From the NCBI RefSeq assembly GCF_001021045.1, contig NZ_CP011545.1:1116001-1180000 (forward strand): 64,000 nucleotides of DNA, given 5' to 3'. Both the position numbers and the translations under genes were made by a program. Below the pieces are notes generated by a model that had not been told where the DNA came from, did not search any database, and saw nothing but the letters and a program-made list of their open reading frames with translations. The DNA is from Corynebacterium testudinoris (GTDB taxonomy: Bacteria; Actinomycetota; Actinomycetes; Mycobacteriales; Mycobacteriaceae). Numbering within the stretch: position 1 is the stretch's first letter; each line of letters begins with the position of its first letter. This document shows positions 45,653 to 55,377 of this stretch, in pieces.

Positions 45653-46704
45653 TGACCACGACGACAACCACCGTGGTCGAGCCGGAGGTCCTGGCCACCA
45701 TCGCTGACCGTGCCAAGGCGGTGGACAAGAACGAGATTCCCGCCCGCTACGGCATCGAGCTGTTGGGGCAGCGCGGGGAGATCCTGCGCGAAGACTTGTT
45801 GGAGCGGGCTCGCCAGCTCCGAGAGATCGCCTCCGTGGATCTGTCCGTCGCCTTCGGGTTGTGGGCCCATTCCATGGTGGCTACCTACCTCCAGACCGCG
45901 GACACCGCTTACGCCCGCGAGATCTTGCCGACCGTGCTGCAGGGCCGGCGCCCTGGCGTCACCGGCATGGCCGCGGCCTTCAAGGAGGCCGCCGGCGCCG
46001 GGGAGATCGATCTCCACGCCGAGCGAGTCGAGGACGGCTATGTCCTCACCGGCAAGTTGAATTGGGCCTCCAACCTCGCCGATGACGCCATCATCGTCAC
46101 CGCCGCCAAGACTGAGGCCGGTGAGCGGGTGCTAGTCGTGCTCGATGGCAATGCCCCCGGCGTCACCCTGGGCAAACCTTTTGCATTGCTGGGTCTCAAT
46201 GCCACCTCCTCGGCGTGGGTGTCCCTGGACGGGGTGTTCATTGCCGACGAGCAGGTGCTCAGCACCGACTTCGAGTCCTTCGTCGCCGCCGTGCGACCCA
46301 CCTTCGTCGTGCTCCAAACCTCCGAATGCCTCGGCGTCGCCGAAGCCGCCATCGAGGCAGCCGCCCAGCGCCTCCACGGCGTCAATGAGGTGCTCACCGA
46401 CGACGTGGAGGAGACCGCAGAGCGGATCCACGCGCTCGTCGATAAGCAAGAGGACCTCGCGCGACGCATCGACGAGCGCGGGGCAGTGACCAAGGTCGAG
46501 CTGCTGGAGCTGCGCCTGGCCGCAGCCGAAGCCGCGGTCGCCGCCGCCAACCTCGAGGTTCGCCTCGCGGGTGGGGCGGGGTATGCCCAAAGTTCGCCGG
46601 CCTCGAGGCGCTTCCGCGAGGCCGCGTTCATCCCCGTGCAATCGCCCTCAGAGACCCAGTTGAAGTGGGAGCTGCAGCGCGCCCGCCAACAGCAGGAGGG
46701 CTAA
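45652..46704 (+). CDS. Acyl-CoA dehydrogenase-fold flavin monooxygenase-like protein
   Basis: A 350-residue protein with the acyl-CoA dehydrogenase fold: N-terminal helices, a beta-domain segment (GVTGMAAAFKEAAGAGEIDLHAERVEDGYVLTGKLNWASN split over two strands) and C-terminal helices. The usual catalytic Glu and acyl-CoA motifs are not obvious. Adjacency to a flavin reductase suggests a two-component FMNH2-dependent monooxygenase of the DszC/SfnC type rather than a beta-oxidation enzyme. That group attacks sulfur- or nitrogen-containing compounds. Substrate unknown. Confidence 0.75.
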   Translation: MTTTTTTVVEPEVLATIADRAKAVDKNEIPARYGIELLGQRGEILREDLLERARQLREIASVDLSVAFGLWAHSMVATYLQTADTAYAREILPTVLQGRRPGVTGMAAAFKEAAGAGEIDLHAERVEDGYVLTGKLNWASNLADDAIIVTAAKTEAGERVLVVLDGNAPGVTLGKPFALLGLNATSSAWVSLDGVFIADEQVLSTDFESFVAAVRPTFVVLQTSECLGVAEAAIEAAAQRLHGVNEVLTDDVEETAERIHALVDKQEDLARRIDERGAVTKVELLELRLAAAEAAVAAANLEVRLAGGAGYAQSSPASRRFREAAFIPVQSPSETQLKWELQRARQQQEG

Positions 46705-46707
46705 GGC

Positions 46708-47196
46708 GTGCACGTGAGCGCAGAACGCCTTCGGGCGGCGGCCGGGACTTTTCCCACCGGCGTGACCATCGTGACCACCCATACCCCGGAGGGGCAGGAC
46801 GTCGGGCTCACCGTCAGCGCATTCTCCTCGCTGTCGCTTGACCCCGCGATGGTGGTGCTCAGCGTGGACAACGCCTCCACCTCGCTGCCGTACCTCCAGC
46901 TCGGCGGGCCCATCGGGGTGTCGGTGCTCGCAGAAGGCCAAGACCACCTCGCGCGGCAATTCTCCCGCCGCGGCATCGACCGCTTTGAGGGCGTGCACAC
47001 CGAACGACACGCGAATAACGTGCCCACGGTGCACGGCGCGGCAGCCTGGTTCGTCGGCCACATCGCCCACTTCCACGCTGGCGGGGATCACACAATCATC
47101 ACCGTCGCGGTCGAGGACTGTGGGACCGATGAATCCACCCGCCCGCTGTTGTATCAGCGCGGGCAGATCCACCTATTCCCGGAGTATCAGATCTAG
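46708..47196 (+). CDS. Flavin reductase (HpaC-like)
   Basis: A 162-residue flavin-reductase-like domain protein: RAAAGTFPTGVTIVTT at the start, SLSLDPAMVVLSVDNAS and ISVGVSVLAEGQ-type segments bind FMN and NAD(P)H. It would supply reduced flavin to the preceding monooxygenase-like protein, from which it is separated by three bases. Start GTG at 46708. Its last nine codons and stop lie in the 63-bp repeat. The stop originally shared CTAG with efeB, before the islet inserted. Confidence 0.88.
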   Translation: MHVSAERLRAAAGTFPTGVTIVTTHTPEGQDVGLTVSAFSSLSLDPAMVVLSVDNASTSLPYLQLGGPIGVSVLAEGQDHLARQFSRRGIDRFEGVHTERHANNVPTVHGAAAWFVGHIAHFHAGGDHTIITVAVEDCGTDESTRPLLYQRGQIHLFPEYQI

Positions 47197-47225
47197 GCGA
47201 ACAGACCCTCGCCGACGAAATTCGC
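47163..47225. repeat. 63-bp direct repeat, left copy (islet boundary)
   Basis: Matches 51717-51779 in 62 of 63 positions (A at 47175, G at 51729). It holds the last codons of the flavin reductase gene plus, on the other strand, a copy of the last 11 codons of efeB (reading ANFVGEGLFA-stop). Sequence identity stops abruptly at both ends. It behaves like a duplicated attachment site bounding the 4.49-kb islet. Confidence 0.85.
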
Positions 47226-48000
47226 CGCTTTGAGCTAGCCGAAGTATTGCGCATGCACACCTGTGGACGTGCACTTCTGCTCAGTTGCAGTCAACCGATT
47301 TCACCGGACGCGCGGAACATAGATTGAGGGCGAGGCCAGCGGCGGGGCGGCCTGCCGTGGCGTCGTAAAAGTGCCTACGTCCCTTCTCCGGCCTGATTCG
47401 GTGTGCCTCAGGCGGCACGGCGATGCGCAAGCAGGGATTGCAATACATCTGCCTGAACTATTAGCGCTCGATCTGCTCCCAGTCCATCAATGCGAAAGAT
47501 GTGTCGGCCCTAGTAGGGAAGCGGCTCCAAAGGTGCCAGCTCCTTGCTGGTAGATGGAATTGGACGCTTCTGCATTCTGGTCGAGTTGTGTTGCTGCAAG
47601 CTACCGGATGATCCTCGCTCGCGTGCAGCGTTCGACGCCGATTGGCACTTCATCAACGGAGGGCGCTGAACCAACGGCTTGCGATCCGCCTCGTTCGAGG
47701 CTCATCGTGCCGTGAACGTTGCGCGGATAACGGAGATCGAAGCAGTCGACAATCCTGACAACGTGAGCATTACTCTGGAGCGGCTATGTCAGCGGGCCAT
47801 ACTGGTGTTGATCGATGCACTCCACAGGTTTCCTCCCGCGCCGAGGGGCAAAAGCCGAGCATCGAGCCTGGCATCAGCGCAGGATACTGCGTTACGTACA
47901 TAGACTGGGGCTGGATTTCAAGCGGTTTAGACGCAACCGTTTCTATATCCCCACAGCGTTGTGCACTCGGCGTGGTTCAGTCATCGATGGTCCCGACCCG
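47226..48000. other. Gene-less stretch of the islet
   Basis: No open frame here has a ribosome site or a recognisable family; frames are short and overlap on both strands. A plus-strand frame at 47815-48039 contains HQRRILRYVHRLGLDFKRF, which looks protein-like but ends in unrelated residues. This could be the N-terminal remnant of a lost gene. Otherwise I see nothing in this stretch beyond the left repeat and, at its end, the TetR promoter. Confidence 0.5.
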
Positions 48001-48014
48001 TTTACATACTTTTA

Positions 48015-48038
48015 CATACGTGTTAGCATGTTTGTATG
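48015..48038. promoter_or_regulatory. Operator-promoter overlap of the islet TetR gene
   Basis: CATAC-N14-GTATG spans the -10 hexamer TAGCAT (48024-48029) and includes the ATG itself. A second CATAC lies at 48005-48009. TAGCAT is six bases before the ATG, so the message is leaderless and a TetR dimer bound here would block its own promoter and that of the following exporter. Confidence 0.4.
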
Positions 48039-48617
48039 AGACGCACGGCTGAGGAAGCCGCACGGACGCGGGAAGCGCTGTTACGTGCGGCATTAATGGC
48101 CTTCGAAGAGAAGGGGTGGCGGGGGGCAACGTTTGAGCAAGTCGCCGAACGGGCTGGAGTTACTCGCGGCGCCCTTAATCACCACTTCCGGTCCAAGGAG
48201 GCCTTGCTGTCGGATGCACTGGAGTGGGGCTGGGGAGAGTACGGCGACCGCCTGTTCACGCAGGAAGTGCCCGTGGCGGATGCCGCGACGTGGCTCCACA
48301 CCCTGCTGGCGGACTTCGTCAGTGCACTGCGTTCGGATGAGTTGTTCCGGGCGCTGGCTTCAACGACGGTGCTAGTCGCGCCTCAGTCCGACGGCAACAC
48401 TACGAGCAAGCACACGGCACTGGATAGCTGGCGCGAACAGATCGCCACCACCCTGGCCCACGAGAAGACCTCAATCCCGCCGCGAGTGGTCGCGGGCCTG
48501 GTGCTGGTGCTGCTGCAAGGACTCACCGTGACCGCGGTGACTCGACCCCATGATCTTCCGCAACCCGAAAACCAGGACGCCGCAGTTGCGGCGTTGGTGA
48601 GGGGGTTGCTCTCTTAG
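48036..48617 (+). CDS. TetR-family regulator of the islet exporter
   Basis: A 193-residue AcrR-like repressor. Its DNA-binding helices lie at residues about 10-55 (ARTREALLRAALMAFEEKGWRGATFEQVAERAGVTRGALNHHFRSKE by parts: TFEQVAERAGVTRGALNHHF). The C-terminal half resembles the MDR-type ligand domain. It is 17 bp upstream of an MFS exporter and presumably represses it. Leaderless start. Confidence 0.88.
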   Translation: MRRTAEEAARTREALLRAALMAFEEKGWRGATFEQVAERAGVTRGALNHHFRSKEALLSDALEWGWGEYGDRLFTQEVPVADAATWLHTLLADFVSALRSDELFRALASTTVLVAPQSDGNTTSKHTALDSWREQIATTLAHEKTSIPPRVVAGLVLVLLQGLTVTAVTRPHDLPQPENQDAAVAALVRGLLS

Positions 48618-48634
48618 AAAGGACTCGTCACCTC

Positions 48635-49831
48635 ATGACGACACACGATCCCGCCTCGCCTGGTCGAGGCACCACCCCGACCCGCGCCCTCATCGTCGGC
48701 GCGGCCGCGATGTTCACCGACATGCTCGTGCACGGCCTTGCCGTTCCCGTGCTCCCGCTGCTTCCCGCCGTGGTCGAGCAAGGGCCAGCGGCCACCGGCA
48801 TCCTATTCGCCTCTTACGCGGTCGCGATGATCGTCGCGACGTTGTTCGCGGGGCGTCTCGTCGATCGACATGGACCGAAGACCCCGCTGCTGATCGGACT
48901 CGTCGGTCTTGCTGCCGCGACGCTGCTGTTCGCCACCGGCGGCCCCTACTGGCTTCTGTTGATCGCCCGCCTTGCCCAGGGCATTGCTGGGGGTATGTCC
49001 TGGGTTGCTGCGCTTTCCCTGATCGCGGCGACCACGAGCTTCGACAAGCGCGGACAAGCGATGGGCATCGCGATCTCTAGCCTCACCCTCGGTGTGCTCC
49101 TCGGCCCGCCTGTTGCCGGATTCATGGTCGAGCACCTAGGCACAGCCTCCCCGTTCCTCCTCGCAGCCGGTATCGCCCTAGCTGACGGGGTACTGCGCAT
49201 CGTCCTTGTCAAAGGCACACCACGGGTTATCGACGACACTGCGGGTCCGCTTGCAGTGCTGCGGGTGCCTGGCTCGGTCTCGATCGTGCTTGCCATTGCT
49301 ATTGGCGCGGGTGTCCTTTCGGCGATCGAGCCGGTGCTTCCCGTGCACTTGGGGGTAGGTTCGCTCGTTATCGGGCTGCTTTTCGGACTGGCCTCGCTGG
49401 CAGCGATCATCGCGAACCCCGTCGTCGGAAAGTACGTGGCTACGGCGTCGTCAAAGGTGCTCATCGGTGCAGGCGTGGTCGCTGCTGCCAGTTCACTCTT
49501 GGTCATTGGCTGGGCGGGTGAGCTGTGGCAGACCTGCGTGGGGATGGCACTCCTTGGCATTTCTTCCGCACTGCTCCTGGCCCCTGCGACCACCCTTATT
49601 AGTGAGCAAGGCTTCCGTTCGAAGCCACCAACCCTTGGTGGTTCGTTCGCGCTCTACAACTTCGCCTACGCAGTAGGGCTCGCGATCGGGCCGCTTCTGG
49701 CCGGCTTCGGGGTGCAGCAGATCGGATTCTCCGCGGCGATGACGATAGGTTCTGCGGTCTTGGTCGCGATCGGTGCTATTGCCCTGACACGGCTTCCCGG
49801 ACGGCAGCACGAGAATGCGCCAGGAAAGTGA
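48635..49831 (+). CDS. MFS drug-type exporter (islet)
   Basis: A 398-residue twelve-span DHA1-type transporter. The loop after span 2 reads AGRLVDRHGPKTPLLIG (motif A), span 4 has RLAQGIAGGMSWVAALSLI and span 5 LGVLLGPPVAGFMVEHLG (antiporter motif C). It is probably an efflux pump controlled by the preceding TetR protein; AGAAAGGA about 10 bases upstream of the ATG is its ribosome site. Substrate unknown. The next 185 bp (49832-50016) hold no gene I can identify. Confidence 0.87.
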   Translation: MTTHDPASPGRGTTPTRALIVGAAAMFTDMLVHGLAVPVLPLLPAVVEQGPAATGILFASYAVAMIVATLFAGRLVDRHGPKTPLLIGLVGLAAATLLFATGGPYWLLLIARLAQGIAGGMSWVAALSLIAATTSFDKRGQAMGIAISSLTLGVLLGPPVAGFMVEHLGTASPFLLAAGIALADGVLRIVLVKGTPRVIDDTAGPLAVLRVPGSVSIVLAIAIGAGVLSAIEPVLPVHLGVGSLVIGLLFGLASLAAIIANPVVGKYVATASSKVLIGAGVVAAASSLLVIGWAGELWQTCVGMALLGISSALLLAPATTLISEQGFRSKPPTLGGSFALYNFAYAVGLAIGPLLAGFGVQQIGFSAAMTIGSAVLVAIGAIALTRLPGRQHENAPGK

Positions 49832-50016
49832 CTTTCCTGCTCGGTAGTGGGCGTGTTCGGTCCAACGACACTGGGTAGGACGCGCCTGGCTGCAGTAACC
49901 AAACTGGGAACTACGCGAACCCCAGAGCAACGCCGCACCTCTTGTGCTTGTCTGTGGGGTCCATGTTCGAGGTAGTACTGCACACATGGGCCTTGAACGA
50001 CGTTGGTTCACCCAAC

Positions 50017-50469
50017 CTAGTCGGTGATCGGAGCGGCGAGGGCTTCGGTCGTGCCTGCTTCCGCAACAACAGCAAGCGCACATCCAAGTTTCTGAAGGTC
50101 TTCACACGTCTCGACGGAAACGACTTTGCCCCATACCAAAGTCATGAACTGGAACACCGTGTTCTCGTACCTCGTGCCATCGGGCAGTTCGCCACTGATC
50201 GAGGCACGCACAGCGATTCGAGTGCGCCACGGGCCGCCGTCGACGAGCACATCACGGATGTTGAATTGCGCACCCGGCAACAGGTCCATAACGCGCTCCC
50301 ACCAGCGGATCATCGACTCACGTGTGGTGCGGCGTCCTCCCAGCGCGTGGTCACCGTGGAAACGGTACTCGAAAGAGGGGGCAAGGCCGTCGACCATCGC
50401 CATGTAGTCGCCTGCGTTGATCCGTTCAAATACGCCTCTCACTTTGGCTCTGACGATCCGCTTATACAT
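50017..50469 (-). CDS. SnoaL-like / NTF2-fold protein (islet)
   Basis: A 150-residue NTF2-like protein: RAKVRGVFERINAGDYMAMVDGLAPSFEYRFHGDHALGGRRTTRESM is the typical first half, followed by beta strands FNIRDVLVDGGPWRTRIAVR. The fold includes polyketide cyclases, isomerases and many proteins of unknown role. The start ATG at 50469 has AAAGG six bases upstream; a TTG two codons earlier is too close to the site. It is divergent from a TetR gene with a palindrome between them, so it is the likely target. Confidence 0.8.
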   Translation of the reverse strand: MYKRIVRAKVRGVFERINAGDYMAMVDGLAPSFEYRFHGDHALGGRRTTRESMIRWWERVMDLLPGAQFNIRDVLVDGGPWRTRIAVRASISGELPDGTRYENTVFQFMTLVWGKVVSVETCEDLQKLGCALAVVAEAGTTEALAAPITD

Positions 50470-50500
50470 TGTCAACCTTTCCCAAGTCCGTCACGATTTA

Positions 50501-50517
50501 TGTTACCGTGAGTAACA
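50501..50517. promoter_or_regulatory. TetR operator palindrome in the SnoaL-TetR spacer
   Basis: TGTTAC-CGTGA-GTAACA is a perfect 6-5-6 inverted repeat three bases before the TetR start codon and 32 bp from the SnoaL-like start. Its position between divergent genes fits autoregulation plus control of the SnoaL-like gene. Confidence 0.6.
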
Positions 50518-50519
50518 CT

Positions 50520-51134
50520 ATGGTTCGTTCAGGGCGTCCGCGCAAGAGTCAGATCAAGGACAATATCGTCGAAGCGATGGCTGAGTTAGTCGCGGAACAC
50601 GGATACGCCTCCGTCACACTCGATCAAGTGGTCACCAGAGCAGGCAGCAACAAGCCCGCGTTTTATCGCCGGTTCCGGCACCTCGCCGACGTGGTGCCTC
50701 ACATCCTCGCCTCACGGCACGGAACCGACGAGGACATTGACACTGGCAGCCTCGTTGGCGATTTAATCGAGGTGCAGCGCCGCCAGTACAGACTCTTCAC
50801 CGATCCGGTGATCACCAGGGGGCTGACGGGATGGCTCGCGCATGTCGATAGCGATCCAGAGGTCGGCGCCCCGTTTTTCCGCGACTATCTCATACCCCGT
50901 CGCGCCTATACGCGAGTCATCCTCGACCGTGCCCGGAATCGCGGTGAGGTCACTGCCGATGTGGACGCCAATTGGATTGCTGACCTGCTGACTGGCCCTT
51001 TGTTCATGCGAGCCGTGATGCCTGGATTGCCACCGATCGACAGTGCGCTTATTGCTCAGAGCATCCACGCGGCACTCGACTCGGTCGGGTTTCACGGAAA
51101 TCGACCGAACATTGAGAGGCTCATCGCAGGCTAA
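50520..51134 (+). CDS. TetR-family regulator (islet)
   Basis: A 204-residue regulator beginning MVRSGRPRKSQIKDNIVEAM. The helix-turn-helix spans about residues 28-55 (ASVTLDQVVTRAGSNKPAFYRRF). The C-terminal domain (TRGLTGWLAHVDSDPEVGAPFFRDYLIPRR) is of the TetR_C_11-like type. The start at 50520 was chosen because the operator palindrome lies just before it; an upstream ATG at 50469 would place the operator inside the gene. Probably regulates itself and the divergent SnoaL-like gene. Confidence 0.85.
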   Translation: MVRSGRPRKSQIKDNIVEAMAELVAEHGYASVTLDQVVTRAGSNKPAFYRRFRHLADVVPHILASRHGTDEDIDTGSLVGDLIEVQRRQYRLFTDPVITRGLTGWLAHVDSDPEVGAPFFRDYLIPRRAYTRVILDRARNRGEVTADVDANWIADLLTGPLFMRAVMPGLPPIDSALIAQSIHAALDSVGFHGNRPNIERLIAG

Positions 51135-51203
51135 GGGCCGCAGAAGAAGGACGATCAAGATCGGGCATTTTTGCTCCGCCACAGCATTCCACACTCGACG
51201 TAG

Positions 51204-51476
51204 TCATCCGTTGACGGTTCGTCCGGCGTCGATGACGCTGCTGATTGCGTCTCGCGAGGCGACGAGTGCTTCGATAGATGCTTCGAAGCGGGCTTGTTCG
51301 CGGTGAAGATCTTCGATCGTGTCTGAGCAGATCGGTGTGAGTTGTCCCGCGCGATCGGTCAGGCACGGCAGCACCGTGTGGATCGTGGCAGTGCTCAGCC
51401 CGGCGTCGAGCAACTGACGGATGCGCTGGCCGTGGCGCGGTGGACCCATCGACACGACAGTGACGTGCACCGTCAC
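51204..51476 (-). pseudogene. MerR-family regulator lacking its DNA-binding domain
   Basis: The frame contains GQRIRQLLDAGLSTATIHTVLPCLTD and ends with a helix (EASIEALVASRDAISSVIDAG). This is the part of a MerR protein that follows the winged helix, plus its coiled dimerisation helix. The N-terminal 35-40 residues with the DNA-binding motif are missing and replaced by unrelated sequence (MTVHVTVVSMGPPRH). It is therefore a truncated remnant. The adjoining 51477-51716 contains a protein-like plus-strand frame (FGPRSCRYEFLQEGFRGPKAM) that I cannot assign. Confidence 0.7.
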
Positions 51477-51716
51477 CGAATTCGGTCCAAGGTCGTGCCG
51501 CTACGAGTTCTTGCAAGAGGGATTCCGTGGGCCCAAGGCTATGTTCGCGCGGTTCTTCCTGAGTGAGGTCACCAGGAAGATTCCTCACTGCGCGGGGTGT
51601 CGTCAGCCAGCTCTGACGGTTCAGTCGGTAGGAAGTGCTTACTGCCCCTTCGCCGAGCCACGTTGTGCCCCTCAAGCATATGCAGGTCGGCATCGGCCCG
51701 GATTACGGCAGCCCAC

Positions 51717-51779
51717 GCAGATCCACCTGTTCCCGGAGTATCAGATCTAGGCGAACAGACCCTCGCCGACGAAATTCGC
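51717..51779. repeat. 63-bp direct repeat, right copy (islet boundary)
   Basis: Second copy of 47163-47225 with one mismatch. Here the efeB side is continuous with the intact efeB gene, whereas upstream of the repeat the flavin reductase sequence is absent. This shows that the left copy carries the native reductase end and the right copy the native efeB end. Confidence 0.85.
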
Positions 51780-53003
51780 AGAGTCGGCGAGCCCGGGCGG
51801 CACGATGTACACGCCCGAGTTCGTCGTCTTGAGGTACTCGATGAACATGTCGTCGCGGGCCATGTTGCGGTGTACCCGGGCAAAGCGCGCGGGGTCTTTC
51901 ACGTAGGCGATGAAGAACAGTCCGGCGTTGAGGCGCCCCTGATCATCGTTGCCGTCGATGAAGTTGTAGCCGCGGCGCAGCATCTGGATGCCGTCGTTGT
52001 TGTCGGGGTGGGTGCGGAACACGTGGGAGCGTTCGTCGATGACCGGTAGCCCGCGGGCATTGCGGGCGTGGAAATCGGGAGCATCGAACTCGTTTGTTCC
52101 GGTCGGCGGCGCGCCCTCAAATTTGTCGCGGCCGGTGACGCGCTCCTGCTCCTCCAGTTGGAGGGAATCCCACACCTCGATGGTCATGATGATCCTGCGG
52201 GCGATGAGGTAGGACCCACCGACGGCCCATTGCTGGCCCTGGTCGGGGCCGATCCACACGTGTTCTTCCAGCAACTCCGGCTCCTCGGCCTTGAGGTTGT
52301 TGGTGCCGTCTTTTTGGCCGAAGAGGTTGCGTGGGGTTTTCTGGCTTTCGGAGGTCGAGGAGGTGCGGCCGAAGCCCACCTGGGACCAGCGCAGCGCGGC
52401 CGTGCCCATGGCCTGGCGCGTGAGATTGCGGATGGCGTGTGAGGCCACCTGCGGATCGTTGGCGCAGGCCTGGATGCACAGGTCTCCGTCGCTGTGAACG
52501 GGGTCAATGAAGTCATTGACCATGACGGGGAGGTCCGCGAAGTCGGCGGGGAGGCGCTCGGTGAGGCCGAAGCGGTCGTCGAAAAGCGAACGGCCGAACC
52601 CGAAGGTGAGGGTGAGGCCGGATGGGCCGAGGTCGAAGGCTTCGCCGGTGTCGTCGGGTGGGAAGTTGGGTCCACCACCGAAGGCGCCGCGCGCGCTCAT
52701 TTCTCCGCCGATGACGAGGCGACGAGCGGCGGCGGTCCACCGTTCGAGCAGGTCGATGAGGTCCTCCCGGCTCGTGCCTTCCGCCAGGTCGAAGGCGGCG
52801 AAGTGGAGGCGATCCTGCGCCGGGGTGATGATCCCGGCTTGGTGCTCGCCCTCGAAGGGGTAGACCAGCTCGTCGGTTTCGGGCGGGGGATCGGGCTGGG
52901 CGATGGCGTAGCCGACTCCCGCTCCGGCCCCGGCGCCCGCGGCCGCGCCGAGCCCTCCGGCGCCGAGCAGTCCGAGCAGTTGGCGGCGATTCATGGTGGA
53001 CAT
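51747..53003 (-). CDS. efeB: Dyp-type heme peroxidase EfeB (Tat-exported)
   Basis: A 418-residue Dyp peroxidase that oxidises ferrous iron or extracts iron from heme outside the cell, in the EfeUOB uptake system. It has a twin-arginine signal (NRRQLLGLLGAGG), the GQKDGTNN motif (GXXDG) near residue 230, and the proximal heme His in RSHVFRTHPDN near 330. The start at 53003 lies five bases after the efeO stop, with GGAGT upstream. The 3' end lies in the islet's right repeat. Confidence 0.93.
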   Translation of the reverse strand: MSTMNRRQLLGLLGAGGLGAAAGAGAGAGVGYAIAQPDPPPETDELVYPFEGEHQAGIITPAQDRLHFAAFDLAEGTSREDLIDLLERWTAAARRLVIGGEMSARGAFGGGPNFPPDDTGEAFDLGPSGLTLTFGFGRSLFDDRFGLTERLPADFADLPVMVNDFIDPVHSDGDLCIQACANDPQVASHAIRNLTRQAMGTAALRWSQVGFGRTSSTSESQKTPRNLFGQKDGTNNLKAEEPELLEEHVWIGPDQGQQWAVGGSYLIARRIIMTIEVWDSLQLEEQERVTGRDKFEGAPPTGTNEFDAPDFHARNARGLPVIDERSHVFRTHPDNNDGIQMLRRGYNFIDGNDDQGRLNAGLFFIAYVKDPARFARVHRNMARDDMFIEYLKTTNSGVYIVPPGLADSANFVGEGLFA

Positions 53004-53008
53004 GTGGG

Positions 53009-54262
53009 TTACTCCGAGATGCTGAGCACGGTGCCCGTCAACCGCGAGAGCGGCTCGCGCAGGGCATCGATCTTGCGGGTGAGTTCGGCCTGTTGGGCGG
53101 CGGTGACTTCGTCGTACATGGTGAAGCCGGCGTCGAGGGAGCCGTATTCGTTGAGGAGGGCTTGCAGGTCGTCGAAACGCTTGTTGATCTCGGTGACTAG
53201 CTCGGTGCCTTCCTCGCCCTTGGACTCGGCGATGGGGGCGACGAGGTCGAAGGCGATGCGCGATCCTTGCAGGTTGGCCTGGAAGTCCCACAGATCGTAG
53301 TGTGACCACCAGTTTTCCTCGCCGGTCACCTTGGTCACGGCGATTTCTTCGAGCAGGCCGCTGGCACCGTTGGAGACGGTGGAGATGGTGATTTCCTGCT
53401 CGGCGGCGAAGTCTGGGGCGTGGACGGTGTCATAGAGCTTATCGACGTCCGCGATGAGCGTCTCACCAATCCGCTTGCGGTCCTCAGGCGTCGAGGGCTC
53501 CCAGCCCTCACGGGCCGGGGAGCCATCGGCATTGCGATCGTCTTCCGCCGGTGGCCACAGATCCTTCTCGATGCGGTGGAACCCGATCCATTCGGTGAAG
53601 GTCGGATCATCGGCTTGGAGGTCCTCGGCTTCGGCCAAGTAGTCGACCTCGCGGTAATCGATGCGGGGATCGAGGGTGCCCAGGGCCTCGGCGAGGGGCT
53701 CGATGCGCTCATAGTTGACGCGGGTGGGGGCGTAGAGGGCGCGGGCCTTCTCATCGTCGCCGTTGATGTAGGCGGTGGCGAACTCGTCGACGTTGGGGAC
53801 CAGCTCGGCAACCTCGTTCTTGACGAAGTTGACGTAGGAGGTCACCGCCTCATCGAAACGTTGCTGATCGGAAGCGTCGACCTCGAGGGCGTCGCCGGTG
53901 ACCTGGAAGGCGGCCTGGCCGACATTCGCGCCGCGCAGACCCGGCTTGCAGGCGGTGAAGTAGTCGCCCGGCGGCAGGGTGACGGTCAGGTCCGCGCTGG
54001 AACCCGGCGCGATGTTTTCCTTCTCAGAGACAATGCGCAGGCCATCGCTGCCCAGGAGGTAGAACTCCGTGACCTTGTCGCCGTCGTTGGTGATGGTGAA
54101 GGTGTGGTTGCCGCTGGTGACTGAGGCGGTGGACACCGTGCACTTATCGGACGTGGATGAGACGGTGATGGCACCATCCGCCGCCGTGTCCGAGTTGTCC
54201 ACGCAGCTGACCAACAGCAGGGTGGAGGCGGCAGTGAGGGCGCCGAGGGCGTATTTGTTCAT
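53009..54262 (-). CDS. efeO: Iron-uptake lipoprotein EfeO
   Basis: A 417-residue lipoprotein (lipobox LLLVSC near residue 20). An N-terminal cupredoxin domain (residues about 30-125: GNHTFTITNDGDKVTEFYLL, GDYFTACKPGLRG) is followed by an M75-type helical domain with the HxxE metal motif in GFHRIEKDLWP near residue 220. It binds and presents iron to EfeU. The ATG at 54262 has GGAG eight bases upstream. Second gene of efeUOB. Confidence 0.93.
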   Translation of the reverse strand: MNKYALGALTAASTLLLVSCVDNSDTAADGAITVSSTSDKCTVSTASVTSGNHTFTITNDGDKVTEFYLLGSDGLRIVSEKENIAPGSSADLTVTLPPGDYFTACKPGLRGANVGQAAFQVTGDALEVDASDQQRFDEAVTSYVNFVKNEVAELVPNVDEFATAYINGDDEKARALYAPTRVNYERIEPLAEALGTLDPRIDYREVDYLAEAEDLQADDPTFTEWIGFHRIEKDLWPPAEDDRNADGSPAREGWEPSTPEDRKRIGETLIADVDKLYDTVHAPDFAAEQEITISTVSNGASGLLEEIAVTKVTGEENWWSHYDLWDFQANLQGSRIAFDLVAPIAESKGEEGTELVTEINKRFDDLQALLNEYGSLDAGFTMYDEVTAAQQAELTRKIDALREPLSRLTGTVLSISE

Positions 54263-54293
54263 GGTCAATGCTCCAAGTGGTCGGGGATGAGGG

Positions 54294-55196
54294 TCAGTGG
54301 GAGGTGCGGGTCCGGAAGTGGGCCCGACGCAGGAAAGCGGGGAAAACAGCCAGGAGGTAGGCAGCCCAGCAGGTGACTTCCAACCAGGTCATCTGCGGGA
54401 CGAAGCCGATCGTGCCCTTGAGGAAGGCGGCGAGGACGCCACTGGGCTCAATGAGGTGTTCGACGTTGAATGCCCACCCGAAGGGGTAGGCCGCGCCCCA
54501 GAAGGGGTAGGCGTCGAACCCGGTGAGGACTTCACCCGTGCGTGGGTGGGTGGGGGCGATGGGGGCGCCGGAGAAGGGGCCAGGCAAGACCGCCGCCTCC
54601 TGCAGATCATGGATGCCGTAGGCGAGGATTCCGGCGGCAATGATGATGAGGAACACGCCGGACCAGGAAAAGAAGGAACCCATGTTGATCCGGATGGCGC
54701 CGCGGTAGAGGCCGTAGCCCAAGCCGACCGCGACGAGGATGCCCGTGAGCGCCCCGAGCAGGGCGACGGGGTTGCCGGCCCAGCCCCACAGCATGAGGGT
54801 AGTTTCAATTCCTTCGCGGGCTACTGAGACGAAGGCGATCCAGAAAATCGCCCGCGCGCCGGAGCTCAGTGCCTCGGCGGCTTCCTCCTCTAACTCGGCT
54901 TTCATGCGTCGTCCGATGCGCATCATCCAGAAGACCATCCAGGTCACCATCGCCACTGCCACCAACGACATGGTGCCGCCGATGATCTCTTGTGCCTCGA
55001 AGCTCAGGCCGTAGCGGCCAAAGGTGAAGATCGCGCCGAGGATGAGGGAGCCCACGACGGCGAGGCCGACGCCCCACCAGATGGATACCCGGGCGTCATT
55101 GCGGTCTTGGCGTTTGACGTAGGCGAGCAGGATGCTGACGATGAGCGCTGCCTCCATGCCCTCGCGAAGACCAATGAGAAAGGAGGCGAGGAACAT
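54294..55196 (-). CDS. efeU: Iron permease EfeU (FTR1 family)
   Basis: A 300-residue high-affinity iron permease with seven spans and both REGxE motifs: LREGMEAAL near residue 10 and AREGIETTL near 128, which carry iron through the membrane. Start at 55196 with GAAAGG eight bases upstream; an ATG five codons earlier has no site. First gene of the efeUOB operon, behind a DtxR-type box. Confidence 0.94.
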   Translation of the reverse strand: MFLASFLIGLREGMEAALIVSILLAYVKRQDRNDARVSIWWGVGLAVVGSLILGAIFTFGRYGLSFEAQEIIGGTMSLVAVAMVTWMVFWMMRIGRRMKAELEEEAAEALSSGARAIFWIAFVSVAREGIETTLMLWGWAGNPVALLGALTGILVAVGLGYGLYRGAIRINMGSFFSWSGVFLIIIAAGILAYGIHDLQEAAVLPGPFSGAPIAPTHPRTGEVLTGFDAYPFWGAAYPFGWAFNVEHLIEPSGVLAAFLKGTIGFVPQMTWLEVTCWAAYLLAVFPAFLRRAHFRTRTSH

Positions 55197-55220
55197 GGTC
55201 GAACCTTTCAAGAAATGGAG

Positions 55221-55239
55221 GAGGTAAGGCTAACCTTAA
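55221..55239. promoter_or_regulatory. DtxR box controlling efeUOB
   Basis: On the minus strand the core TAAGGTTAGCCTTACCT matches 15 of 17 positions of the DtxR consensus core TTAGGTTAGCCTAACCT. It lies 25-43 bp before the efeU start. Iron-loaded DtxR would repress iron uptake from here. Confidence 0.75.
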
Positions 55240-55377
55240 GGCCACCTGCGAGTGGAGGACATAGTTTTGGGGGTGTGGGCTAGGTCATGTAACCCCGGAA
55301 TGGGGGAGGAGTGAGGGTCGATGGCGACCTGCTAAGCTGTCGAGGAAGTCCATTAGGTGAGAAGGGAATTCCATACA

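Follow-up and report, generated by a model that had tools for sequence, protein, structure and literature searches.

A 4.49-kb islet between two convergent genes of Corynebacterium testudinoris, possibly inserted with a long target duplication

In the genome of Corynebacterium testudinoris (G000), a species thought to be an animal commensal (PMC4520890), and with isolates from wastewater and fish semen according to its genome announcement, a flavin reductase gene and the gene efeB converge from the two sides of an insertion, here called islet A, whose ends are marked by two nearly identical copies of a 63-bp sequence. Islet A lies in the window, that is, the whole 64,000-nt stretch of DNA that was analysed (1116001-1180000 of the single contig of G000, 2,721,226 bases), and positions given without a prefix are those of the window. 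The duplicated site, the inserted DNA and the two flanking genes are arranged as follows.

46708..47196, plus strand: flavin reductase gene, left neighbour, whole (PF01613, E 3.1e-38)
47163..47225, no strand: left 63-bp copy, made of the last 34 bp of the flavin reductase gene and 29 bp of efeB tail, and carrying the derived base at the mismatch (sequence comparison)
47226..51716, no strand: inserted DNA (islet A), 4491 bp, G+C 61.0% against 63.8% for the window (sequence)
51717..51779, no strand: right 63-bp copy, made of a 34-bp flavin reductase tail and the end of efeB (sequence comparison)
51747..53309, minus strand: efeB, right neighbour, whole, with its start probably at 53006 (TIGR01412)

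When compared directly, 47163-47225 and 51717-51779 are equal at 62 of 63 bases, and the identity drops sharply outside the copies, to 18/63 at offset -60 and 22/63 at offset +63; the duplicated site described in an earlier note on this DNA is therefore confirmed, and a search of the whole G000 genome with the 63-bp sequence returns exactly two matches at E<=0.001, the left and the right copies. Shuffling speaks against a chance origin of the repeat: the longest exact direct repeats reach 50 bases in the window, but 15-18 bases in 30 triplet shuffles. The open reading frames (ORFs) of flavin reductase and of efeB, the latter on the minus strand, end at 47196 and 51747, respectively, so that the repeat does hold the 3' ends of both genes, as had been claimed, and both genes are whole. 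Read from the two copies together, the stops of flavin reductase and efeB would have overlapped in CTAG in one original junction; this part of the earlier description can be deduced from both copies, while a junction with such overlapping stops and no islet was not seen empty in any genome compared.

The interval between flavin reductase and efeB varies among relatives. As a block, islet A is present in 0/241 other genomes of the genus, and the possibility that all related species carry it, which had been raised as an objection to an insertion, is not borne out; pieces of islet A, from 29 bp to ~1.75 kb, are shared by 12 of these 241 genomes, the number of pieces being a lower bound because no more than two candidates were scored in each genome. 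Relatives of the flavin reductase occur in 117/201 genomes, including its own, and among 29 such loci (L004-L032, with ~1.5 kb of flank) a close efeB stands beside the flavin reductase in only one, that of C. alimapuense (G137), where the two genes form a single junction with no islet and with their stops ~40-50 bp apart. In the sister genome G029, the flavin reductase is 94% identical to that of G000, and 25 bp lead from its stop to the leuB region, with neither efeUOB nor the islet; the best efeB-type protein of this genome is 37% identical. A different gene, read here as an oxidoreductase, occupies the interval in G103 and G019. The absence of the block from the 241 other genomes and the single junction in C. 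alimapuense support the proposal that an insertion left both genes whole. The comparison of this junction among relatives, suggested in the earlier note, thus provided a single islet-free junction, although not an exact 63-bp empty site with overlapping stops. As a separate observation, efeUOB is missing in G029 between flavin reductase and leuB (47197-55328 of the window), having been lost or never been there, and C. alimapuense has efeUOB at the same place as G000.

At the single mismatch between the copies, G029 agrees with the right copy, and for this reason the left copy, the one within the working flavin reductase gene, is the changed one and carries the derived base. The suggestion that the mismatch is the trace of an incoming copy from a related strain is thus not borne out. 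Over 34 bp, the two copies of islet A share 2 differences from G029 and show 1 difference between themselves, and a host origin of this duplication is weakly indicated. The duplication looks young, because the copies differ at 1/63 sites while the fourfold-degenerate sites of three neighbouring genes differ at 169/492 between G000 and G029, and it would be much younger than the split of these two genomes unless gene conversion has kept the copies alike.

Other insertions of similar anatomy were found by a survey of insertions >=600 bp, in which 1.064 Mb of G000 (39% of the 2.72-Mb genome) were compared with 1.068 Mb of G029. Three of the 20 G000 insertions have long flanking direct repeats (islets B and C and island D), a fourth, an 8131-bp gap that also holds efeUOB, contains islet A, and the remaining 16 show no long flanking repeat. 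Long repeats (36 and 77 bp) flank 2 of the 14 G029 insertions, both of them IS1634-type insertion sequences. The three siblings of islet A, all from the comparison with G029, are located as follows.

L161:521-3367 = G000:C1:1016521-1019367, no strand: islet B, 2673 bp, with an 87-bp repeat (86 identical)
L187:12150-17566 = G000:C1:748150-753566, no strand: islet C, 5.2 kb, with a 102-108 bp repeat
L218/L219 = G000:C1:1638052-1655958, no strand: island D, 17.7 kb, with an 81-93 bp repeat

Islet B was first found in 264 kb around the window. Its repeat covers the 23 bp over which two convergent genes, one for an ABC-type ATPase and one of the arginase family, overlap; both flanking proteins end alike in G000 and G029, and the exact empty site is present in G029, where one 87-bp copy joins both flanks. 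Over these 87 bp, the two copies have 9 differences from G029 in common and 1 between them; because both share the nine differences, it was clearly the host's own target that was duplicated in islet B, at a time when the lineages of G000 and G029 had already separated. Islet B carries an N-terminal piece of MmeI and an insertion-sequence copy with a transposase gene (Pfam rve); this copy is 99.9% identical to one elsewhere and is taken here to be a later arrival. Islet C lies between purH and a TetR gene, which are convergent, has a single site in G029, and carries a catabolic-type set of genes (aldehyde dehydrogenase, dehydrogenase, LysR and MFS), with no restriction gene among its four ORFs. 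The place of islet C holds other DNA in G103 (~6.5 kb) and G019 (~22.7 kb), and is ~0.2 kb long in C. alimapuense. Island D encodes Type IIG restriction-methylase, DrmD-like, DruE-like and UvrD-type proteins, and a second short ORF in it repeats the end of the restriction-methylase. Restriction genes or pieces are thus present in two of the three sibling islets, as a Type IIG/MmeI piece in B and as a gene in D.

Islets A, B and C lie between convergent genes and D does not, its neighbours being read here as an rpsO-like gene and a gene without a Pfam match, both on one strand. Against a background of convergent pairs from a crude gene caller (178/968 in G029 and 189/961 in G000), the assignments at B and D having been set by hand and the larger gap around A being labelled tandem by the caller because G029 lacks efeB, the convergent placement of three of the four long-repeat islets gives a value of 0.02, a weak figure, since it was obtained post hoc without correction and since the test was partly suggested by A and B. 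Taken together, islet A is real, is probably young, and is one of at least four alike in the surveyed 39% of the genome.

The DNA between the two copies of the 63-bp site contains the following features.

47226..48014, no strand: left part without recognised genes (789 bp); among 400 other genomes of the family, no relative longer than 23-30 bp
48036..48617, plus strand: TetR-type regulator (PF00440)
48635..49831, plus strand: MFS exporter (Pfam; sequence comparison)
50017..50475, minus strand: SnoaL-like gene, divergent from the second TetR gene (PF12680)
50469..51134, plus strand: second TetR-type regulator (PF00440, PF16859)
51204..51432, minus strand: C-terminal piece of a MerR-type regulator that is complete in loci L129 and L131 (sequence comparison)
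51420..51562, plus strand: internal piece of an AHSA1-like gene that is complete in locus L130 (sequence comparison)

The load of two TetR genes and an exporter without a recombinase, as first reported, is confirmed, and the MerR and AHSA1-like pieces are added to it. These two pieces are fused over ~13 shared bases and are both open inside. The TetR-MFS pair of islet A is 78% identical to a Dietzia plasmid pair, and likewise to a second copy in G000. To judge from these genes and joints, the cargo of islet A looks like foreign pieces that were joined together. The second TetR-MFS pair (L128:9469-11509, near G000:C1 1394500) is itself 99.7% identical over 2041 bp to the pair on the Dietzia kunjamensis plasmid pDK2035-61, and sits in a 32-kb insertion missing from G029, with transposase-like ORFs nearby. 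For the 789 bp on the left, 4/400 other genomes of the family give a match, over 23-30 bp only, and for a 49-residue frame beside the right copy a match at E<=1 is found in 97/242 genomes, its own included, the best other E being 0.0024. No integrase and no transposase were recognised in islet A; none of its ORFs, nor any of 10 reading frames of the islet edges, has a Pfam match to a recombinase, and the edge frames give only two sub-threshold Pfam matches (MerR-DNA-bind, E 0.087, and DM, E 0.072). Inspection by eye reveals no terminal inverted repeat at the ends of A or B. Several familiar origins are likewise disfavoured: a tRNA attachment site, with 0 tRNA genes in the window; a known structured RNA, since Rfam gives 0 matches at gathering score for 46500-52500; and a phage origin, islet A having no match in phages.

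In structure, islet A fits the description of a known and mechanistically open kind of insertion, of which it may be a further case. According to papers citing the original study (Nobusato et al. 2000), this kind, insertion with long target duplication, was recognised in two Helicobacter pylori genomes and is frequently, though not universally, associated with restriction-modification genes (PMC1643837; also PMC3031569 and PMC4978471). A 2024 paper citing that study mentions the hypothesis that restriction enzymes attack the target, and as an alternative an insertion into existing breaks (PMC11708052). The Corynebacterium islets resemble the H. pylori case in that islet A is flanked by a long direct repeat of its target with no recombinase recognised, in the variable lengths of the repeats (63, 87, 102-108 and 81-93 bp across A-D), in the single copy present in a related genome, shown for sibling B and also for C, there with a dispersed repeat, and in the restriction genes or pieces of siblings B and D. 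They differ in belonging to another phylum, in the cargo of islet A, which consists of regulators and an exporter and not of restriction genes, and in the position of the repeats of A and B, which lie across overlapping stops of convergent genes. No Corynebacterium islets of such anatomy were found in the literature, in a search limited to result listings.

That islet A is an insertion of foreign DNA with a long target duplication, which left 63 bp of the host junction on both sides and cut neither gene, is accordingly the reading favoured here, and is held to be somewhat more probable than its negation. The best guess for the underlying process is capture by break and fill: breaks or nicks ~60-110 bases apart on the two strands would open the chromosome (or copying would restart that far back), the foreign piece would be joined into the opened junction of the convergent genes with overlapping stops, and filling in of the single strands would then double the target and leave both gene ends whole. 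A restriction-linked origin is the leading guess for islets of this kind, because two of the three sibling islets hold restriction genes. Several points weigh against this interpretation. The break-and-fill step, with its nuclease and joining activity, is only postulated; ordinary, Ku-dependent end joining is not at hand, there being 0 Ku genes in G000, G029, G137 and G103, although one is present in G019. No restriction-modification gene was recognised in islet A, and the exact empty site of islet A was not seen, as G029 lacks efeUOB and the C. alimapuense junction has diverged. In addition, 17/20 of the surveyed insertions have no such repeat at their edges, the repeat of islet C belongs to a dispersed family with many weaker relatives in G029, and the copies at island D differ at 15/89 sites, which makes this case older or less clear.

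Mobilisation in trans, or recombination through a short shared segment, may also have been the route of islet A. In one rival reading, an enzyme of the IS1634/IS1549 type carried passenger DNA along, acting in trans or through a single end, the ends having since been lost. For two members of this group, duplications of 8-514 bp are reported, in a paper that also states that no mechanistic model had been proposed (PMC2266710), and the five full, near-identical IS1634-type copies of G029 (L280, L282, L284, L285 and L286), where these elements are active, have flanking duplications of ~35, 0, 34, 103 and 76 bp, a range that covers the 63-108 bp seen in G000. Long and variable target duplications are therefore common to islet A (63 bp) and to four of the five G029 copies (~34-103 bp), and G000 retains, outside the surveyed part, two short pieces akin to the ends of the element (G000:C1:67839-67938, L281, and G000:C1:2169935-2170054, L283). 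By eye, L281 resembles a small element that has both ends but lacks a transposase. However, islet A has neither a transposase nor recognised terminal inverted repeats, no inverted repeat was seen by eye at the ends of A and B, and the IS1634-family transposase (NF033559), with 8 matches in G029, has 0 in G000. The exact 12-base terminus of the G029 element is likewise missing from the 1.06 Mb of G000 sampled, inexact ends not having been searched, and with a repeat changed at one base only, intact insertion-sequence ends beside it should have survived too. The lack of the family transposase in G000 and of an exact terminus in the sampled part speaks against insertion of IS1634 proper, and movement of passenger DNA by such an enzyme is considered unlikely.

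A remnant of a site-specific integrative element, with an attachment site joined to the gene-end junction and an integrase gene later lost, would account for a direct repeat that keeps the gene ends whole, as elements integrating at 3' ends leave it, and would agree with the variable interval between flavin reductase and efeB among relatives. This route, which the earlier note had compared with the present case, is nevertheless judged quite unlikely, because the incoming 63-bp site would have to equal both host gene ends; the identity of the repeat spans both genes, not one. Islet A differs from such elements further in having no integrase, in ORFs or edge frames, and no free attachment site that could be found at the sensitivity of the searches: the junction gives only weak 20-38-base matches in plasmids and phages and no exact 28-base match in viral contigs, and the window has no tRNA. 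Among 36 other efeB loci, there is none in which a direct repeat covers the end of efeB, and the repeats of the sibling islets are different ones with different lengths, that of B being clearly host-derived. Just past the efeB end, Tessaracoccus caeni (L077) has a 66-bp direct repeat with its copies ~2.6 kb apart, and a Propionicimonas metagenome-assembled genome (L085) has one of 64 bp with a spacing of ~2.9 kb. Recombination of the Campbell type, in which the 63 bp served for recombination between the chromosome and a circle that already held a piece of the junction, excised for example from another strain, would explain host-type sequence in both copies without a recombinase and would have direct repeats that permit the reverse reaction. 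Such a circle only pushes the problem back, since the first joining to the junction would still need an explanation, and several loci with different cargo would each need one; this explanation is regarded as very improbable.

Beyond islet A, and returning to insertion with a long target duplication, the data admit a broader and more tentative idea, doubtful as it stands, that Corynebacterium has a recombinase-free DNA uptake that doubles a target of 60-110 bp, for which overlapping convergent gene ends are safe landing sites, and which, driven by restriction-type breaks or by IS1634-like activity on DNA without its ends, would have built several islets of G000. Bacterial gene gain without an integrase or transposase is poorly explained, and with a long target duplication DNA can be inserted even where two genes overlap, nothing being lost; the direct repeats left behind could permit excision or amplification. 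With several such islets in one genome and an exact empty site for one of them in the sister genome, this long-open mechanism becomes testable in a relative that is harmless. In addition, the five IS1634-type copies of G029 constitute a natural series for the study of long target duplication.

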